NCBI RefSeq assembly: GCF_000427095.1
Contig: NC_021487.1
Span: 3,023,241-3,087,240 of the forward strand
From: Chthonomonas calidirosea T49
GTDB taxonomy: Bacteria; Armatimonadota; Chthonomonadetes; Chthonomonadales; Chthonomonadaceae
Direction of reading: 5' to 3'
Length of the DNA stretch: 64,000 nt
The notes under the pieces are model-generated. The model made no database searches and was not told the origin of the DNA. It saw nothing but the letters and a program-made list of their open reading frames with translations. A program made the position numbers and the translations under genes. Positions 19,259 through 28,170 of the stretch are shown piece by piece. The first letter of the stretch is position 1; the number at the start of each line of letters is the position of its first letter.

Positions 19259-19404
19259 AAGCCTCTACGGTAAGTGGCTCCTCGCATGTCATCCACTCGA
19301 CGCTTTTTTGACTTTCCCCTCTAAATAAAAAGCCGAATCCTGGCAATATTTCTGTGGGCATCTATGGGCGCATTCCAAATCGTTCATCGGGAAGGGAATC
19401 GGCG

Positions 19405-20415
19405 TTGAAAGGATTCGCATGGGCGGCGAGAGTTTTCTGGTCGGTCTGCCTCTGCTGTTGTCTCTGTGCGCAATGCATGGCTACGGACTACGAAGACAGT
19501 CCCGAACCCATCCCTATTTTACTGATTCGAAGTAGCAATAACGCCTTCTACGACCCAACTCAAAAAGGGTTTTTGCAAAGTTTGAAACGGCAGGAACAGA
19601 TGTTGAATATAAGTGCGAAGGTCAACATCATCTCCCTGTCCGGCTCGCAGGATACCGACCAAAAGATGATCGAACAGGCGCTAAACCAGCATCCACAACT
19701 TATCGTTACATTAGGCACAGATGCAACAATTGAAACATCTGCAGTGCATCCAGACGTTCCGGTGCTGTTTACTTTGGTGCTGAATCCTGTAGCGCTCGGA
19801 GTGGTTAAATCGCTTGATGCACCGGGCACGAACTTTAGCGGAACAACCCTGTTAGTGAGCCCTGGCAAGCAACTAGAGGCCCTTTTGCAGGTAGATCCTC
19901 AGGTGAGTCGCGTTGGGGCGATCTATACTCAGGGCGATCCGGTTTCACAAGCGTTTCTTGAGGCGGCTCAGTCGGATGCACAACAGCTTCATATCACTTT
20001 GGTAACGATCGCTGTAAAGAGCGGTGATCCGCCTAGTACCGCCCTGCAGTCGCTTGACGGCAAGGTGGACGCTTTGTGGACAATTGCCGACCCAGCTTCG
20101 AGCGGACCTCAAGCGTTGCAAGCCACCTTAGCCTATGCACATGCTCACAATTTACCGGTACTTGGGCTTTCCGGCGCAACAGTGCACGAGGGGGCCCTAT
20201 TAGCTCTTTTTCCTGACCTGGAAGACGAGGGGGCGCTAACCGCAGAAATGGCCGGCTATCTGTTGAGCGGGTCTCAGAAAATCGAACAACTCCGAGTGCG
20301 TGGGCCACGAAAGGTGCTGCTTTGTATCAATTTAGACGTGGCCCGCGCGTTGAAAATAAAAGTGCCTAACGACGTACTTCACCTCGCCGATGAGGTGGTG
20401 GATTCGGAAAGATAG
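19405..20415 (+). CDS. ABC-type periplasmic substrate-binding protein (PF04392-like)
   Basis: A protein of 336 residues from the TTG at 19405, or 353 from the ATG at 19354. I prefer TTG because GAAGGGA sits about 7 bases upstream and the signal peptide (LKGFAWAARVFWSVCLCC region, cut near MA-TDYED) then starts at once. The body matches the COG2984/TrpX-like binding fold: PILLIRSSNNAFYDPT, LIVTLGTDATIET, VPVLFTLVLNPVALGVV and LPVLGLSGATVHEGALLALFPD. No permease or ATPase gene is nearby. Its 3' end lies 10 bases before the histidine kinase start, which suggests it is a ligand receptor for that kinase. The ligand is unknown. Confidence 0.85.
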   Translation: MKGFAWAARVFWSVCLCCCLCAQCMATDYEDSPEPIPILLIRSSNNAFYDPTQKGFLQSLKRQEQMLNISAKVNIISLSGSQDTDQKMIEQALNQHPQLIVTLGTDATIETSAVHPDVPVLFTLVLNPVALGVVKSLDAPGTNFSGTTLLVSPGKQLEALLQVDPQVSRVGAIYTQGDPVSQAFLEAAQSDAQQLHITLVTIAVKSGDPPSTALQSLDGKVDALWTIADPASSGPQALQATLAYAHAHNLPVLGLSGATVHEGALLALFPDLEDEGALTAEMAGYLLSGSQKIEQLRVRGPRKVLLCINLDVARALKIKVPNDVLHLADEVVDSER

Positions 20416-20425
20416 GAGGAAGAGT

Positions 20426-22849
20426 ATGCACAGTAAAATGGCGCGAAGGCTGATGCGACAATACATCACGCTTACCGCGCTACCTTTGATCATAACGGTG
20501 CTAACGCTTCAACATCTTGGCCATGAGCAGATTCTCTGGACAGGCGATACCATGCGCCGTATCAACCAGGAGATGCTAAACCAAGCCGGAGAGCAGTTTG
20601 AGGAGCTCGGCAGCCGGGCGGTACAAGAGGCTAGCAATAGGGCACAGGCAACTTCTACAGCGACCATCGAGGCTATCAGTCAGCAGCTTCTGAAGCTGCA
20701 GAGCGACACTATGCAACAGGCCGCGAAGGAGTATGCAAACGCGAGTTCCAGGGCGCTATTGACGGCACTTGACCAGTCGGTGAAGAGGCAAAGAGCCGTG
20801 TTATTGAATGTGGGGGACAAAACGAAGGCGTTAATCCATCAGTCCGCCATAGAATCTCAAAAGCGTGCTGGCGGCAACGTGGAGAGCGCTATGATGGCGC
20901 TCAATCGCGAGATCATCCAAGCGCGCGCCTTGGACATTATCAATCAGATACAAGACGTGCTGCATGCGGCTCCGCAGTTTCTGCGTCTCACATCGCAAAT
21001 GATCGATATGTCACCGGAAAGCGACCGAGATAGAGAAGTCAAACTCGATGCGCTTACCCGTCGGATACCAGGATTTCTGCGCGTTAGCGTGATTAATCCC
21101 CAGGGTCAAGAGATCACGGCCTCTGCAGCCGATAGACTCATTACCAGCGACGATCTAAAAAACTATGCCAAGGCCTCTTGGTTTATTGCTGCACTAGGAG
21201 GTCACACATTCATTGGAAGAGCCGAAGCGGATGCTGAACCAGGCGTCCCAGACCTACGTATCGCTGTCCCCATTGAAACCTATCCGGGGCATGTCGTGGG
21301 TGTACTCGCTGCTCGCTACTCTTTAGAGGATGTCTGGAACCAAATTCGCAGCACACGCATAGGCGACACAGGCTTCGCCTGTGTGTTTGATGAACAGGAG
21401 CGACCGCTCCTTCAGCCGCGGCCGATACCTGCCGATGCCCTCATTGCAGAGGCCACTTTGCCCGAGCTCAATTGGCATATTGTTACGGTAGTGCCAAGAT
21501 CTGAGGCGATCAAACCCATTGCAGCGCTCAAATCAGACCTCGAGCAGGCCGCTCATAGTGTTGACAAGCAGACCCAGTTACTGTTGGTTGAGGTAGCTAA
21601 AAGAGCCACGAAAGATCTGGAAGCAAAGTTGACCCATATCAGTTTTGATGCGGGTCGCACGATGCAGCATAACGCACAAATAGCACTTCGAACAACTTCT
21701 CAGCAAGCTCGGATGCAGGCAAGACTTCACCTCGCAACGCTCCAAAGGGCAATTCGGCAACAAACGGAGTGGGCGATGCAACAGAGCCGTCAAAAGATGA
21801 GCCAGGCGGTAGCCGTGACTGCACGGCATATGGCGACTAAGGCACGTGCTTTAACGGTACAAGCTCAGAAACGTGCTGATGGACGCCTCTCTTTGTTGGC
21901 ACTTCTCTTCACCACGCTCTCTTGCTTGATCACCGGCTTCGCTGCCGTTGTAACAGCCAACCGAATCGTGAGGCCGGTTGTTCGGCTATCCCAAGCGGCC
22001 GCGGCTATCGCAGAAGGAGACCTCGATAAGCGGGTAGAAGAGGACGGGCCAGACGAGATTGGAGAGCTGGCTATAGCTTTCAATACGATGACGGCCTCCT
22101 TGCAACAAAGCCGTAACGAACTGCAAGAGACCCAAGGGCAGCTTGTTCAGTCAGCCAAGCTGGCCTCTTTAGGAACGCTGTCAGCAGGTGTGGCCCATGA
22201 GCTGAACCAGCCACTAGCAATTATTCGCGGTATCGCCCAACAGATCATCGCAGATGATAGCCTCCCTGAAGAGATAAGAGCCGACCTTGAGATCATTGAA
22301 GGGCAAACAGGGCGCATGGTAAAGATCATCCGCCATCTACGTACCTTCTGCCGTATGGGTACCACCGATTTTAGCCTTGTGGATGTAAACGAGGTCATAC
22401 GCAACTGTTTCATTTTGGTGGGGGCACAGCTGAAAGCGCACAATGTGGAGGTGGATCTACAGCTTTCTGAAGGCTTGCCTTCCGTGCTAGGCGACGCCAA
22501 TGAGCTGGAACAGGTGTTCTTAAACCTCATTACGAATGCGCGCGATGCCCTGGAGGACAGAGCCAACGCGCTGATCACGATCGTTTCAAAAGTGCAGAAT
22601 AACAAAGTGGTCGTTGAATTTCGGGATAACGGGCCTGGAATACCGGACGACGTGCGCCCCCACATTTTTGATCCCTTCTTTACCACCAAAGAGGCGGGGA
22701 AGGGAACCGGCTTGGGGCTTTCAATTAGCCACAGCATCATCAAAAGACATCAGGGCGCCATAGATGTTCGCAACGATGGAGGGGCGGTATTTACGGTCAC
22801 CCTGCCCATACCCGAACAGGCTCGTATGGAAATGCAAGAGGCGGCTTAG
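20426..22849 (+). CDS. Cache/HAMP sensor histidine kinase with coiled-coil ectodomain
   Basis: A 807-residue membrane histidine kinase. The first transmembrane helix is at about residues 10-27. A long Ala/Gln-rich coiled coil (about 40-165) is followed by a Cache-like sensor domain (about 170-370), a second coiled coil (about 375-485) and a second transmembrane helix (about 490-515). HAMP follows ([19 protein letters not shown]), then the HisKA box GVAHELNQP with His591, N box [11 protein letters not shown]1 DNGPGIPDD and G2 [14 protein letters not shown] 20426 has TAGGAGGA 5 bases before it, so I reject an upstream ATG at 20390. The response regulator follows 120 bases later. Confidence 0.93.
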
Positions 22850-22969
22850 AATGGTATAAACCTCTCTCGCAAAAAAACCGATAATTCTACACGCTCAACG
22901 CATCGAGCAGAGGATTGGTGATTCTTAAGTCATTGAAAATAGAAATGAGACAAATTAGAGGAATAGGCG

Positions 22970-24529
22970 ATGGCAAAAATACTTCTAGCAGATGATGAAG
23001 AGGGTCTGCGCATGTTGCTCAGCAGACAGCTAAAACGAGCAGGCCATGAGGTTACTTTAGCGGAAGATGGCTTGGTGGCTTTAGAGCATTTGCAAAAAGA
23101 AAAGTTCGACTTAGTCGTTTCCGATATGAAAATGCCGCGCCTTGACGGTATGGGGCTCTTGGCAAAAGCCGCTGAAGTCGCGCCAGATACAGACTTTATT
23201 ATCCTAACCGGCCATGGCAACCTAGAGAACGCCGTAGAGGCCTTCAAAACGGGCAATGTGTATGACTATCTTTTGAAACCCTTAGACGACATCAACGAGC
23301 TCAATGCGGTTGTAGACCGTGCCTTAGAACGCAAGTACCTGCGCGCCGAAAACTCTCGCTTGGTGGCCGAACTCCAACAGCGTATTGCCGAGCTAGAGGA
23401 GGCCCACAAAGAGTTAGCGCGGATGGCACAGACCGACGGACTTACCGGTCTACTAAATCATCGCACCATTCATGGCAAACTGCAGGAGCTGCTGGAGCGA
23501 CAGAAACCTTTGAGTGTGATCCTTGTGGATACCGACGACTTTAAGCGACTTAACGATACCTATGGACATCTTATGGGGGATATCGCTCTCAGGCATATTG
23601 CAGACATTCTTCAAAACTACTGTCCGCGCGAGGCGTTTCTCGGCCGTTGCGGTGGAGACGAGTTTATGGTGATATTGCCCGGCCTCACGGCGGCGCAGGC
23701 TATGGAGGTAGCCGAAGGCATTCGGCATCAGATCATCGAAAATCCTCTACATACTGCAGAGGGTAATCGCCTGCCTATGCGTCTCTGTTTTGGCATCGCC
23801 GACACGGCCACCGTTGGCTTTGGCCCTGCTGGGCTGATCACAGCGGCGGATGCAGCTCTCTATGAAAGCAAGCGCGATGGAGGTGACCGCGTCAGCCTGT
23901 ACGTGTTAGACGATGATCCGAGCCGTGATGACCTCGGACGAACCGCTTACTCGGTTTTAGATGGTCTGGTAACAGCGGTGGATCGAAAAGACCGCTACAC
24001 GCGTGCCCATTCCGAGCATATGACTCAATATGCGCTGACGCTGGCAAAGGCCATGAACATGTCGGAGAACGTTTGTGAGATCGTCCGTGTGGCAGGCCTG
24101 CTACACGATGTGGGTAAGATCGGGGTTCCGGACTCGGTTCTGCGCAAACCAGGCAAGCTTACCGATGAAGAGTACGAGATCATGAAGACCCATGTCTCAC
24201 TTTCTGCTGCCATCATTCACGGTCTACCTAACCTGTCCGACATCCTCGATGCCGTGGCCCATCATCATGAACGATGGGATGGTAAGGGTTACCCCTATGG
24301 CAAGAAGGGGGAGGAGATACCGCTGCTTGGGCGCATTATGGCCATTGCCGATGCCTTTTCTGCGATGACGATGGATCGACCTTATCGTGCAGGGTTGGAC
24401 ATAGAAACGGCTCTACAGGAGATAGAGCGCGGTGCTGGCACACAGTTCGATCCCAATCTTGTGCCCATCTTCGTAAGGGCTGTGCGCGAACAACTCAAAG
24501 AGCAGGAGGCTCAACAGCTCGCTGCCTAA
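22970..24529 (+). CDS. response regulator with GGDEF and HD-GYP domains
   Basis: A 519-residue signalling protein. The receiver domain (1-120) has the phospho-acceptor Asp52 (VVSDMKMP) and the conserved Lys in YLLKPLDD. A short coiled coil leads to a GGDEF domain (about 145-305) with intact GGDEF at 228-232, the diguanylate cyclase active site. The HD-GYP domain (about 320-500) has HSEHM, the LLHDVGKIG metal motif (His379, Asp380), HHERWDGKGYP (GYP at 440-442) and IADAFSAMT, the cyclic-di-GMP phosphodiesterase signature. Both opposing activities look intact. Its likely partner is the kinase just upstream. Confidence 0.95.
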   Translation: MAKILLADDEEGLRMLLSRQLKRAGHEVTLAEDGLVALEHLQKEKFDLVVSDMKMPRLDGMGLLAKAAEVAPDTDFIILTGHGNLENAVEAFKTGNVYDYLLKPLDDINELNAVVDRALERKYLRAENSRLVAELQQRIAELEEAHKELARMAQTDGLTGLLNHRTIHGKLQELLERQKPLSVILVDTDDFKRLNDTYGHLMGDIALRHIADILQNYCPREAFLGRCGGDEFMVILPGLTAAQAMEVAEGIRHQIIENPLHTAEGNRLPMRLCFGIADTATVGFGPAGLITAADAALYESKRDGGDRVSLYVLDDDPSRDDLGRTAYSVLDGLVTAVDRKDRYTRAHSEHMTQYALTLAKAMNMSENVCEIVRVAGLLHDVGKIGVPDSVLRKPGKLTDEEYEIMKTHVSLSAAIIHGLPNLSDILDAVAHHHERWDGKGYPYGKKGEEIPLLGRIMAIADAFSAMTMDRPYRAGLDIETALQEIERGAGTQFDPNLVPIFVRAVREQLKEQEAQQLAA

Positions 24530-24576
24530 GTAGGCATTCTCCTGAGCCTCTTTGTGCTCTTTTCAAGGATGGAACC

Positions 24577-26559
24577 TTGCGTAAATCATGGAAGAGCCTT
24601 TCGAGTGGTGTGCTGGCCCTTGTGCTAAACCTCACTGTGAGGTCGGGGCATTGCCTCGAAGCCAAATTAGGACCGGCAAATTCTCAAGAGAACGAGCTGC
24701 TCTTTGCAGGTAAGCTCGATGTTGTCAGCGCTTCTCGAACGAAGCAGCCTCTCGATCAAGCACCTGCGGACGTCACCGTTATCACTGCCGATCAGATAGA
24801 ACGCTCCGGTGCCGTAACGCTGCTCGATGTGCTGCGCTATGTGCCAGGACTGAACGTTTCCGAGAGCAACGCCACGGTAGCAAGCGTATCGTTAAGAGGT
24901 CTAAACTCTCTGCTCACAAACACCCTGCTGGTCATGATTGATGGACGGCCGGTCAACCAGGACGTTAGCGGTGGGGTCACTTGGGACTTTTTGCCGCTGG
25001 CACTGTTGCAGATTCAGCGGATCGAGATCGTCCGAGGTCCCGGCTCCACGCTCTATGGTGCGAACGCCTTCAATGGCGTTATCAACATTATTACCAAGAC
25101 ACCTCAAGAGCAGCTAGAGGGTGCAAGAAACCGCCTCCAATTTCGTACGGTTGTAGGAGGTTATAAGAGCGATTATGATGAACTGTTAGCCTCAGCCGCC
25201 GATCGACATGGCAGCGCGATCTCCTTAAGTTTTGCCTATAACCATTCTGGCGGATATGGGTCAGCGGGAAAGATGGGCGTATGGGATAGCTACGCAACCC
25301 CCCTGATCAACCTGGATTTCAATCATCAAAATCGGCATGCGGAATATCGGCTTCAAGCGGGCACCGTTGCGTCAAGTGAGAATGTCTACCAGAATATTTT
25401 TCTCCAAGGGGCGCATTTCTACCAGTCCTATATAACGTTTCATTATGGAGAGCCTAGGGCTCAAGATCCCTTAACCGTTCGAGGGAGCTATAACAACTAT
25501 AGTGAAACCGCGCAGAATGTAGACTATACCCGGCATTATGTGTTTGAAGGCGAGATACAAAAACAGAATACCTTCAATGGACGAAATACTCTGGTCTACG
25601 GTATGAGTCTACGCCATGTCTACTTTCATTCGGGCATCGCCACACCAGGACGCCACAATCAGAATCTGTTTGGGTTTTATGCGCAGGATGAGGCAAAGCT
25701 TGGTAAGGGATGGATAGCCTATGCCGGACTACGTTATGACGACGATTCGCTGGTAGGATCTCGCATTTCGCCACGCCTGACGGTGATAAAAGATTTGGGC
25801 GCTCGGCAGACGCTGCGTCTTACGTATGGCACTTCCTACCAAATCCCAAGCCTGATAACCTCCTATGCGAGTTTTGCTGTTCCCATTGCACCCATGGTAA
25901 ACGAAGGCGTTGTTGGAAATACGCATCTTGCTTCTATTCGGTTGCAGGGGGGAGAAATAGATTGGCGCAAAGGGTTTTCCAATGGATTTGTTGGGATAGA
26001 TATCTACTACAACAACATCCGTAAGCTTATTGGCCCGGCTCCTCTCACTTTCTTCCCCTCACCTCCGTTTCCGCCTGGCACACCATCCTCCGTGACGTTT
26101 GCCAATAATGGTGGGGCACGCACCTACGGTTTTGAGGTCGAAAGCGAGCTGCAACTCGCAAAACATATGCATGCCCTATTCAACTACTCGTTTGCCAACC
26201 AGCATTTTGACGATAGTTCTGTGGCAGGTTTTTTTCAACCAAACCATATGTTGAATATAGGCCTAGATATGGGGCCTATAAGGCGTTGGGAGGTGTTTTT
26301 GGGAACGCATTTGGTGGGGGCTGTAAGCGCCATTATCGGGGATGGAGGTTTTTACACCGCGCCGGCCTATATACGAACCGACTTAAGAATCGGCTATCGG
26401 CTACGGGAGGGCAAGGAGCCGCTGACGATTGCATTTATCGTGCATAATCTCTTTGATGACCATCACATCGAGTTCCCTTTTGATGACGATAGCCCATTGC
26501 CAGCACAGGTCGCTCCCCAAAGGACGAACCTCTATTTAGAGATTTCCGGCAAGTTCTAA
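24577..26559 (+). CDS. TonB-dependent outer-membrane receptor
   Basis: A 660-residue outer-membrane receptor. The signal peptide is followed by the plug domain (about 45-175): VVSASRTKQPLDQAPADVTV, LLDVLRYVPGLNV and VRGPGSTLYGANAFNGVINI are typical plug motifs. The remaining residues form a TonB-type beta barrel, ending in the terminal strand YLEISGKF with the C-terminal Phe. The ligand cannot be told. The start is TTG at 24577 with AAGGATGG upstream. It lies 47 bases after the REC-GGDEF-HD-GYP gene, and the shared direction with the binding protein and kinase suggests uptake and sensing of one compound. The last codons are duplicated downstream (see the 33-bp repeat). Confidence 0.93.
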   Translation: MRKSWKSLSSGVLALVLNLTVRSGHCLEAKLGPANSQENELLFAGKLDVVSASRTKQPLDQAPADVTVITADQIERSGAVTLLDVLRYVPGLNVSESNATVASVSLRGLNSLLTNTLLVMIDGRPVNQDVSGGVTWDFLPLALLQIQRIEIVRGPGSTLYGANAFNGVINIITKTPQEQLEGARNRLQFRTVVGGYKSDYDELLASAADRHGSAISLSFAYNHSGGYGSAGKMGVWDSYATPLINLDFNHQNRHAEYRLQAGTVASSENVYQNIFLQGAHFYQSYITFHYGEPRAQDPLTVRGSYNNYSETAQNVDYTRHYVFEGEIQKQNTFNGRNTLVYGMSLRHVYFHSGIATPGRHNQNLFGFYAQDEAKLGKGWIAYAGLRYDDDSLVGSRISPRLTVIKDLGARQTLRLTYGTSYQIPSLITSYASFAVPIAPMVNEGVVGNTHLASIRLQGGEIDWRKGFSNGFVGIDIYYNNIRKLIGPAPLTFFPSPPFPPGTPSSVTFANNGGARTYGFEVESELQLAKHMHALFNYSFANQHFDDSSVAGFFQPNHMLNIGLDMGPIRRWEVFLGTHLVGAVSAIIGDGGFYTAPAYIRTDLRIGYRLREGKEPLTIAFIVHNLFDDHHIEFPFDDDSPLPAQVAPQRTNLYLEISGKF

Positions 26560-26598
26560 AAAATTTATTTAGAGATTTCCGGCAAGTTCTAAAAAATT
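26533..26598 (+). repeat. perfect 33-bp tandem duplication across a stop codon
   Basis: Positions 26533-26565 and 26566-26598 are identical 33-base units that begin TATTTAGAG and end CTAAAAAATT. The first copy holds the last eight codons and stop of the TonB receptor gene. The second is an untranslated copy that repeats the stop. It looks like a recent slip or unequal exchange. Confidence 0.95.
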
Positions 26599-26668
26599 TT
26601 GATGCGAAGAAACAAAGATATCATGCCCACAGCGGAAGAACGTGGCTTTTCATCGAGCTTATAAAATG

Positions 26669-26695
26669 GGAAGGCGGTCTCACAGACCGCCTTCC
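26669..26695. terminator. bidirectional terminator between TonB receptor and flagellin
   Basis: GGAAGGCGGTCT (26669-26680) pairs perfectly over 12 bp with AGACCGCCTTCC (26684-26695) around CAC. On the minus strand the stem is followed by CATTTTATAAG, on the plus strand by GCTGTTTGCC. It lies between convergent genes and probably serves the flagellin gene best. Confidence 0.85.
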
Positions 26696-26727: not shown

Positions 26728-28170
26728 TTAAGGGAGCAGCTTGAGGTAGAGCGCACCTAAGTTGTTGGCCGTATAGAGGGCGTTGATTCCACTTTGTTGC
26801 AGCAACTGCAGGTTCGCAAGGTTTACGCTCTCTTGGGCGACGTTCACGTCCATAATGTTGGAAACGGAGGCGCTAAGATTGGTTACCGCGTTCGACAGAT
26901 AGTTTTGGGTGGCCTGTAGGGTATTCTTCTGAAAGTTACCTAGCTCTGCCGCATAGGTGGTGACCTGACTGAGGGCCGCGTTTGCTATCTGCACAGCATT
27001 GGCAGCTCCGGTGGGCGTGGTGACGTTAATGCTTTGAAGCGACTGGCCTGGAATAGCCGTGGTGCCGAGTTGGGAGGCCTGCATGTTTTGAAAGGCGAAG
27101 CTCACCGTCTGTCCTACATTGGCACCGATCTGGAATTGGGCCGGATTGGAAGAGATATTAGCCACTGCGACATTGCTTGTGCTTGTGGAGTTGCCAGATG
27201 CCGTGAGAAGAATTTTATTGCCGCTGGAATCGCTGAGGAGCAGCCCAGAATCGGTTGGGTTGACACCGCCGGTAAAATTGACGGTTTGGGCGACCGTGCT
27301 GCCGTTGATCTGAGTCATGGCAGTAACAGTTGCCAGAGCGTTCTGGCCTACTGCGGTGGTTGCGTTGCCGGCGGCGATGATGGCGCCGGCGCTGTCGCTC
27401 TCCGAGATGGAGTAGTTGCCGCCGTAGTTGGTTTGGGTCAGAACGATTTTACCTCCGCTGAAGCCAGCGGACACGCCTGTTTGACTCGATATCTGGTTGA
27501 TGCTATCTATGAGCGATTGCACCGTTTCACCGGAGCTAACGGTTATGCTCTGCCCATTGATAGTAACCGTGCCAGAGTTGGCAATAGTTGCATTCGCACT
27601 AGCGTAGTTTACTGTGCCGGTAATAGTGGCCATTGTGGCGGCTTGCGTCACCGTGATCGTGACGTTGCCCGACTGGGTTACCCCGTTGGCAAAGGTGCCA
27701 CCAAAGCTGGCCGACGCAATGAGGTTGCTATTGGTAACGGAGGCGCTTGTGCCGGCTGTGCCGTTGAGCAAGCCAATGCCGTTGAACGTGGTATTATTCG
27801 CGATGTTGTTGATGGCGGCTATGGCCGACTGAATGGCCTGCTGGTCGGCAGCGGCATTGCTGGGGTTGCTTTGCGCATCCAGCGCGCTGGCCTGAATATT
27901 TTGCACAAGGGTGACGATCTGTTGTACCGCCCCAGAGGCGGTTTTTACCTCGTTGACGTCGTTCTGTATATTGGAAAGGGCTTGGTTCATGCCATTCACT
28001 TGGGTTTGTAAGTTGGTGGCGATGAGAAAGCCAGAGGGGTCATCTGCCGGACTGTTGATGCGAAGACCTGAGCTAAGGCGAAGCAGCGACTGCTGAATCG
28101 CCGAGTTCGTCTGATTAAGGTAGTAACTGGCCGCAAGCGCGTTCAGGTTGGTGACGAAAGAGAAATCCAT
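26728..28170 (-). CDS. flagellin
   Basis: A 480-residue flagellar filament protein. The conserved N-terminal D0/D1 helices (NLNALAASYYLNQTN, LLRLSSGLRINSPADDPSG, NIQNDVNEVKTASGAVQQI) and C-terminal helices (NYLSNAVTNLSASVSNIMDV, LQLLQQSGINALYTANNL) are both present. Between about 145 and 345 lies a Ser/Thr/Gly-rich variable surface domain. There is no signal peptide, as expected for type III export. AGGAG precedes the ATG by about 10 bases. It is the only flagellar gene in the window. I found no clear sigma28 or sigma54 promoter upstream. Hag or fliC would be the usual name. Confidence 0.95.
   Translation of the reverse strand: MDFSFVTNLNALAASYYLNQTNSAIQQSLLRLSSGLRINSPADDPSGFLIATNLQTQVNGMNQALSNIQNDVNEVKTASGAVQQIVTLVQNIQASALDAQSNPSNAAADQQAIQSAIAAINNIANNTTFNGIGLLNGTAGTSASVTNSNLIASASFGGTFANGVTQSGNVTITVTQAATMATITGTVNYASANATIANSGTVTINGQSITVSSGETVQSLIDSINQISSQTGVSAGFSGGKIVLTQTNYGGNYSISESDSAGAIIAAGNATTAVGQNALATVTAMTQINGSTVAQTVNFTGGVNPTDSGLLLSDSSGNKILLTASGNSTSTSNVAVANISSNPAQFQIGANVGQTVSFAFQNMQASQLGTTAIPGQSLQSINVTTPTGAANAVQIANAALSQVTTYAAELGNFQKNTLQATQNYLSNAVTNLSASVSNIMDVNVAQESVNLANLQLLQQSGINALYTANNLGALYLKLLP

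Follow-up and report, generated by a model that had tools for sequence, protein, structure and literature searches.

A binding protein, a stalked histidine kinase, a response regulator and a TonB-dependent receptor as a probable envelope sensing set in Chthonomonas calidirosea

We analysed a stretch of 64,000 nucleotides from Chthonomonas calidirosea T49 (contig NC_021487.1, positions 3,023,241 to 3,087,240; hereafter the window), in which four genes follow one another on the forward strand: a PF04392-type binding protein (SBP, 19405..20415), a dCache/HAMP histidine kinase of 807 residues (20426..22849), a REC-GGDEF-HD-GYP response regulator (22970..24529) and a TonB-dependent receptor (24577..26559), separated by gaps of 10, 120 and 47 bases. 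The Pfam scan and the coordinates confirmed the sequence-only reading of this locus, which had described an SBP without nearby ABC partners located 10 bases from a Cache/HAMP kinase, with a REC-GGDEF-HD-GYP protein and a TonB receptor on the same strand. The ten genes scanned with Pfam between 17100 and 32438 included no ABC permease or ATPase, and separate ABC profiles, applied to the SBP neighbourhood, did not detect a partner adjoining the SBP either. The promoter scan of the locus gave a count not above that of the shuffles, and terminator-like sites numbered 16 versus 11.5 expected. At the distal end, a 33-base stretch around the receptor stop codon occurs twice in tandem (26535-26600), and a strong terminator-like hairpin is present at 26669-26695, together with a flagellin gene (26728-28170) on the opposite strand, running towards the receptor gene.

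The SBP reading frame was listed from a GTG at 19354 to 20415; the TTG at 19405, preceded by GGGAAGGGAAT, is a better start, and the resulting N-terminus resembles a signal peptide. The protein matched PF04392 with 107.7 bits (cut-off 25.9) and was the sole match to this family in a profile search of the genome. Its AF2 model had a pLDDT of 92.3, and the nearest solved folds were 3lkv, 3lft and 6hnj; 6hni was a further fold match. In the alignment with three solved relatives, the window SBP has TDATI in the place of TPSAQ, TPTAQ and TPAAQ. The assignment as an ABC-transporter binding protein such as TrpX was rejected, as permease and ATPase genes are absent beside the SBP and the score against the TrpX model NF041285 (117.2 bits) was below the cut-off of 390.

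The regulator matched Response_reg, GGDEF and HD_5 in Pfam, and the alignment indicated that its motifs GGDEF, HDVGK and HHERWDGKGYP are intact, with no RxxD I-site seen. With a receiver domain and both catalytic motifs in place, it has by sequence the composition of a dual c-di-GMP response regulator; no DNA-binding domain was detected in it by Pfam. The receptor has the plug and the barrel of a TonB-dependent receptor, and the genome contains three plug loci in all, this one included. Two successive TonB-dependent receptor loci are located elsewhere (C1:1591298-1593719), and the first of them looks broken, its plug match being in two pieces in different frames. Neither an STN domain in the window receptor nor a FecR or sigma factor partner among the scanned neighbours was found by Pfam, and cell-surface signalling of the FecA type was rejected on this basis.

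In the kinase, dCache_1, HAMP, HisKA and HATPase_c all scored above the Pfam cut-off, and the dCache_1 match was the only one in the genome; the ATG start was supported by the ribosome-binding site and its spacing. The dCache sensor domain (residues 154-360, 20885..21505) is placed between two long arms on the forward strand, the first from TM1 to dCache (residues 33-153, 20522..20884) and the second from dCache to TM2 (residues 361-480, 21506..21865). Among 22 aligned kinases the first arm was gap-free and of a single length, and the second had 120 residues in 21 kinases and was slightly shorter, at 118, in the remaining one, with a mean identity between kinases of genome families f1/f9 and those of family f16 of 12% in the first arm and 13% in the second. 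The DHp and CA domains of the same kinases were much more similar, yet gapped. Mean hydrophobicity along the arms showed a peak period of 3.74 residues and autocorrelation peaks at 15, 30 and 45; both arms peaked at 3.73-3.76 in each of the 22 kinases (3.75 for both arms of the window kinase), and 0 of 300 shuffles reached the observed power. Proline was found once among the 2706 residues of the first arm and 15 times among the 2594 of the second. Sampled chemoreceptors peaked at 3.50. The AF2 model of the kinase, run as a monomer with nine sequences in the alignment (mean pLDDT 75.5, pTM 0.44), consisted of a helix at 4-190, a globular part and a helix at 358-529. In the fold search, which covered mainly residues 149-370 (pdb_via), the globular part matched the sensor domains of KinD and DctB with Z of 17-18 over 190-200 residues.

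Given the hydrophobic period of 3.75 repeated many times over, the most plausible reading of the arms is a right-handed 15/4 coiled coil with about eight units of 15 residues each, and since the arms are located between the two membrane helices of the kinase, they must run antiparallel. The arms are predicted in the model to be unbroken helices forming a stalk of about 18 nm (120 residues x 0.15 nm), which would lift the dCache sensor towards the outer membrane. At typical periplasm widths a stalk of this length would span the periplasm, and from these typical values we infer that it could reach across to the outer membrane. When 903 genes of the fetched loci were examined in a windowed test for a period of 3.72-3.78, all 28 stalked kinases passed, as did 16 other genes. 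Only two of the latter were comparably strong. These are further kinases from the phylum, with 15/4 arms and about 1026 residues (L236, 3589-6672; L237, 4470-7550), and they suggest that stalks could be more widespread among its kinases. The stalk as a mark of linkage to the SBP or the receptor was rejected, as 15/4 arms are present in these two kinases and in those of two genomes discussed below (G032 and G033), and neither an SBP nor a receptor was detected beside any of the four within the fetched stretch. The stalk was not seen in SBP-adjoining kinases of other phyla, which are shorter (498-705 residues; L083, L085-L087).

Relatives of the SBP were present in 40 of the 291 genomes of the phylum at E <= 0.001. 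The close group, drawn from families f1, f9 and f16, numbered 27 genomes; G167 entered it through a fragment of 112 residues at the end of a contig. With the kinase arms and dCache as a profile, the same 27 genomes matched with E of 1.1e-59 or better, and the next genome gave a partial kinase match at 1.1e-19. The genes are thus not scattered in relatives; such scattering was the outcome that the sequence-only reading had named as speaking against it. The order SBP, kinase, regulator, receptor was shared by the window and seven other genomes (L053-L057, L059, L062), with the kinase split into two ORFs in L059 and two receptors in L062. A different arrangement is found in family f16, which supplies 17 of the 27 genomes: the regulator is replaced by a lone receiver domain, the order is REC, receptor, SBP, kinase where the contig extends far enough, and neither GGDEF nor HD-GYP genes were detected adjoining these sets. 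One f16 locus (L035) had no upstream REC match and a REC-kinase downstream. The c-di-GMP output is therefore one variant of the set: the proposed c-di-GMP regulator holds for the window and is replaced in f16 by the lone receiver. A plug match was present in 25 of the 27 genomes; in the other two the sets are cut by contig ends, with a barrel end adjoining the SBP in G165 and the contig starting just before the SBP in G166. No second plug match occurred in any of the 15 f16 genomes that have one. We rejected the four genes as a fixed unit, because of the lone REC and different order in f16 and because G032 and G033 keep the kinase and regulator only.

The SBP and kinase genes are adjacent and co-inherited, and we consider it fairly probable that receptor, SBP, stalked kinase and regulator form a dedicated sensing set leading from the envelope to the cytoplasm. 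The receptor would be the outer-membrane entry or detection point for a ligand, and the SBP its periplasmic carrier or presenter. The raised dCache domain of the stalked kinase would bind and read the loaded SBP (or read the receptor), and the change could be relayed to the kinase core by way of the right-handed coiled coil, TM2 and HAMP. The kinase would then phosphorylate the adjacent regulator, which in the window may make or break c-di-GMP and elsewhere is a lone receiver. We hold more tentatively, as a rather doubtful extension, that the fixed-length stalk of 15-residue repeats crosses the periplasm and reads the receptor and the SBP at the outer membrane, providing a direct line from there to c-di-GMP that may be independent of TonB.

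The window genome has one TonB_C match. Among ten set-bearing genomes examined, that of the window included, a search with this single Pfam family gave no match in five (G053, G163, G173, G174 and G175) despite their receptor, and these include all four of the f16 genomes examined. The five were counted against the ligand-import step; a search with one Pfam family is a thin test, but on its result the receptor may act in signalling instead of import. In G032 and G033, TonB_C is present and a plug match is absent. TonB_C therefore did not track the receptor in any simple pattern, given these two genomes and the five receptor genomes above. An E-x-L-F motif preceding the TonB box was considered as a special contact site and set aside, since receptors from other phyla contain comparable stretches.

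Sensor domains of the dCache type usually bind small ligands directly, and the nearest solved folds of the kinase's dCache are mostly ligand-bound sensors. Alternatively, then, the dCache domain could itself be the direct sensor of a small molecule, with the kinase doing no more than regulating the SBP-receptor pair for uptake or scavenging, so that the genes would be neighbours by regulation and not by contact. In G032 and G033, which belong to the same order as the window, the kinase adjoins a REC-GGDEF-HD-GYP regulator, and genome profile searches revealed neither an SBP match nor a plug match. The kinase, the stalk (arm lengths unchanged, 121 and 120) and the regulator are thus kept without the SBP and the receptor, indicating that the kinase can serve without them, as direct sensing would allow. 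However, the dCache domain has diverged where the pair is missing: its identity to the window is 17% in G032/G033 versus 36% in the full sets of f9, whereas the DHp identity is 64% versus 66%. The arms have 14% and 10% versus 27% and 20%. This divergence fits, at the level of sequence, a sensor surface freed from its partners, with the qualification that the two genomes are close relatives representing one event and that their arms diverged too. Further points against direct sensing are the absence of an inner-membrane transporter beside the SBP, and a regulator that, having no DNA-binding domain, cannot itself switch transcription of the SBP-receptor pair. We therefore regard it as possible but unlikely.

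A scan by the SBP sequence alone yielded 17 loci, eight of them from other phyla and labelled Zixiibacteriota, Methylomirabilota, Deltaproteobacteria, Proteobacteria, Omnitrophota or, in one case, Candidatus Gygaella. The kinase was immediately downstream of the SBP in seven of the eight and a receptor was within two genes in four; the arrangement receptor, SBP, kinase, REC-GGDEF was found in two of the eight. Twenty PF04392 loci were also sampled by hand-stepping from the phylum of genome G293, some of them on short contigs; they gave seven same-strand kinase neighbours, four receptors within two genes and two ABC neighbours. In a tree of 92 PF04392 domains the window SBP was placed within a supported clade of 24, of which 22 carried the label kinase-linked, while the remaining two (L052, L058) come from cut contigs with the first part of the kinase; ABC-linked rows clustered in a separate clade. 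Together, the outside loci, the sample and the tree indicate that sensor-serving PF04392 proteins, often with a TonB-type receptor, are widespread and not specific to the window.

PF04392 relatives beside an ABC permease and ATPase do exist, and the ABC negatives reported here have the scope of a neighbourhood, so the SBP could be shared with a distant ABC transporter, its link to the kinase being secondary. This we find quite improbable, as the genome has a single PF04392 protein and that protein is in the kinase-linked clade, apart from the ABC-linked rows. Chance proximity of genes without shared function, for which the gaps of 120 and 47 bases would permit separate transcripts, is strongly disfavoured by the co-occurrence of the genes, seen in an identical set of 27 among 291 genomes, and with the same parts found in other phyla we see hardly any room for it. 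Co-occurrence, tree and neighbourhoods thus support the initial proposal in part, as regards one sensing unit, here found to be co-inherited, with the SBP tied to the kinase and not to an ABC transporter; its further steps, ligand import by the receptor and a phosphorylation-driven change in the balance of c-di-GMP synthesis and breakdown, are putative.

Signalling by SBP-coupled kinases is already known, and the stalk, absent from the sequence-only reading, is the new and surprising part. LuxP-LuxQ and TorT-TorS are SBP-stimulated sensor kinases. BctC-BctE is another, and about ten SBP-kinase pairs have been characterised (PMC9602780). As in the window, in these three systems the gene of a periplasmic SBP adjoins that of a transmembrane kinase whose sensor domain is periplasmic; the window set differs in its PF04392-type SBP, its outer-membrane receptor and its arms of about 120 residues, and here the SBP-kinase contact is a presumed one. 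In NspS-MbaA of Vibrio cholerae a binding protein is coupled to c-di-GMP turnover and the membrane protein is itself the c-di-GMP enzyme; the window SBP would be similarly coupled, but through a kinase and a separate regulator. FecA-FecR-FecI likewise has an outer-membrane TonB-type receptor upstream of the signal, whereas the window receptor lacks STN, and FecR and a sigma factor are absent from the scanned neighbours. The stalks of YadA-like trimeric adhesins are parallel right-handed 15/4 (pentadecad) coiled coils outside the cell; the kinase arms share the hydrophobic period of 3.75, but lie inside and antiparallel. The dCache fold is shared with KinD and DctB, which have no 120-residue arms in their solved structures (sensor domains only). 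In the open-access literature searched, we recognised no description of a TonB receptor-PF04392-kinase set or of a 15/4-stalked kinase. The set adds many more SBP-kinase pairs, from several phyla and with a built-in outer-membrane receptor, and a length-constrained right-handed kinase stalk, if true, would represent a new means of signal transfer across the periplasm.

In two genomes (G191, G192) a related SBP adjoins a chemoreceptor instead of a kinase, and PF04392 proteins at L036, L037, L177 and L189 adjoin or are near chemoreceptor (MCP) genes, which is another sign that the family often serves sensing. Multidomain forms were also observed, with three tandem PF04392 domains in a protein of 978 residues (L184, 4265-7201) and two PF04392 domains together with a STAS domain in one of 1077 residues (L046, 8168-11401).
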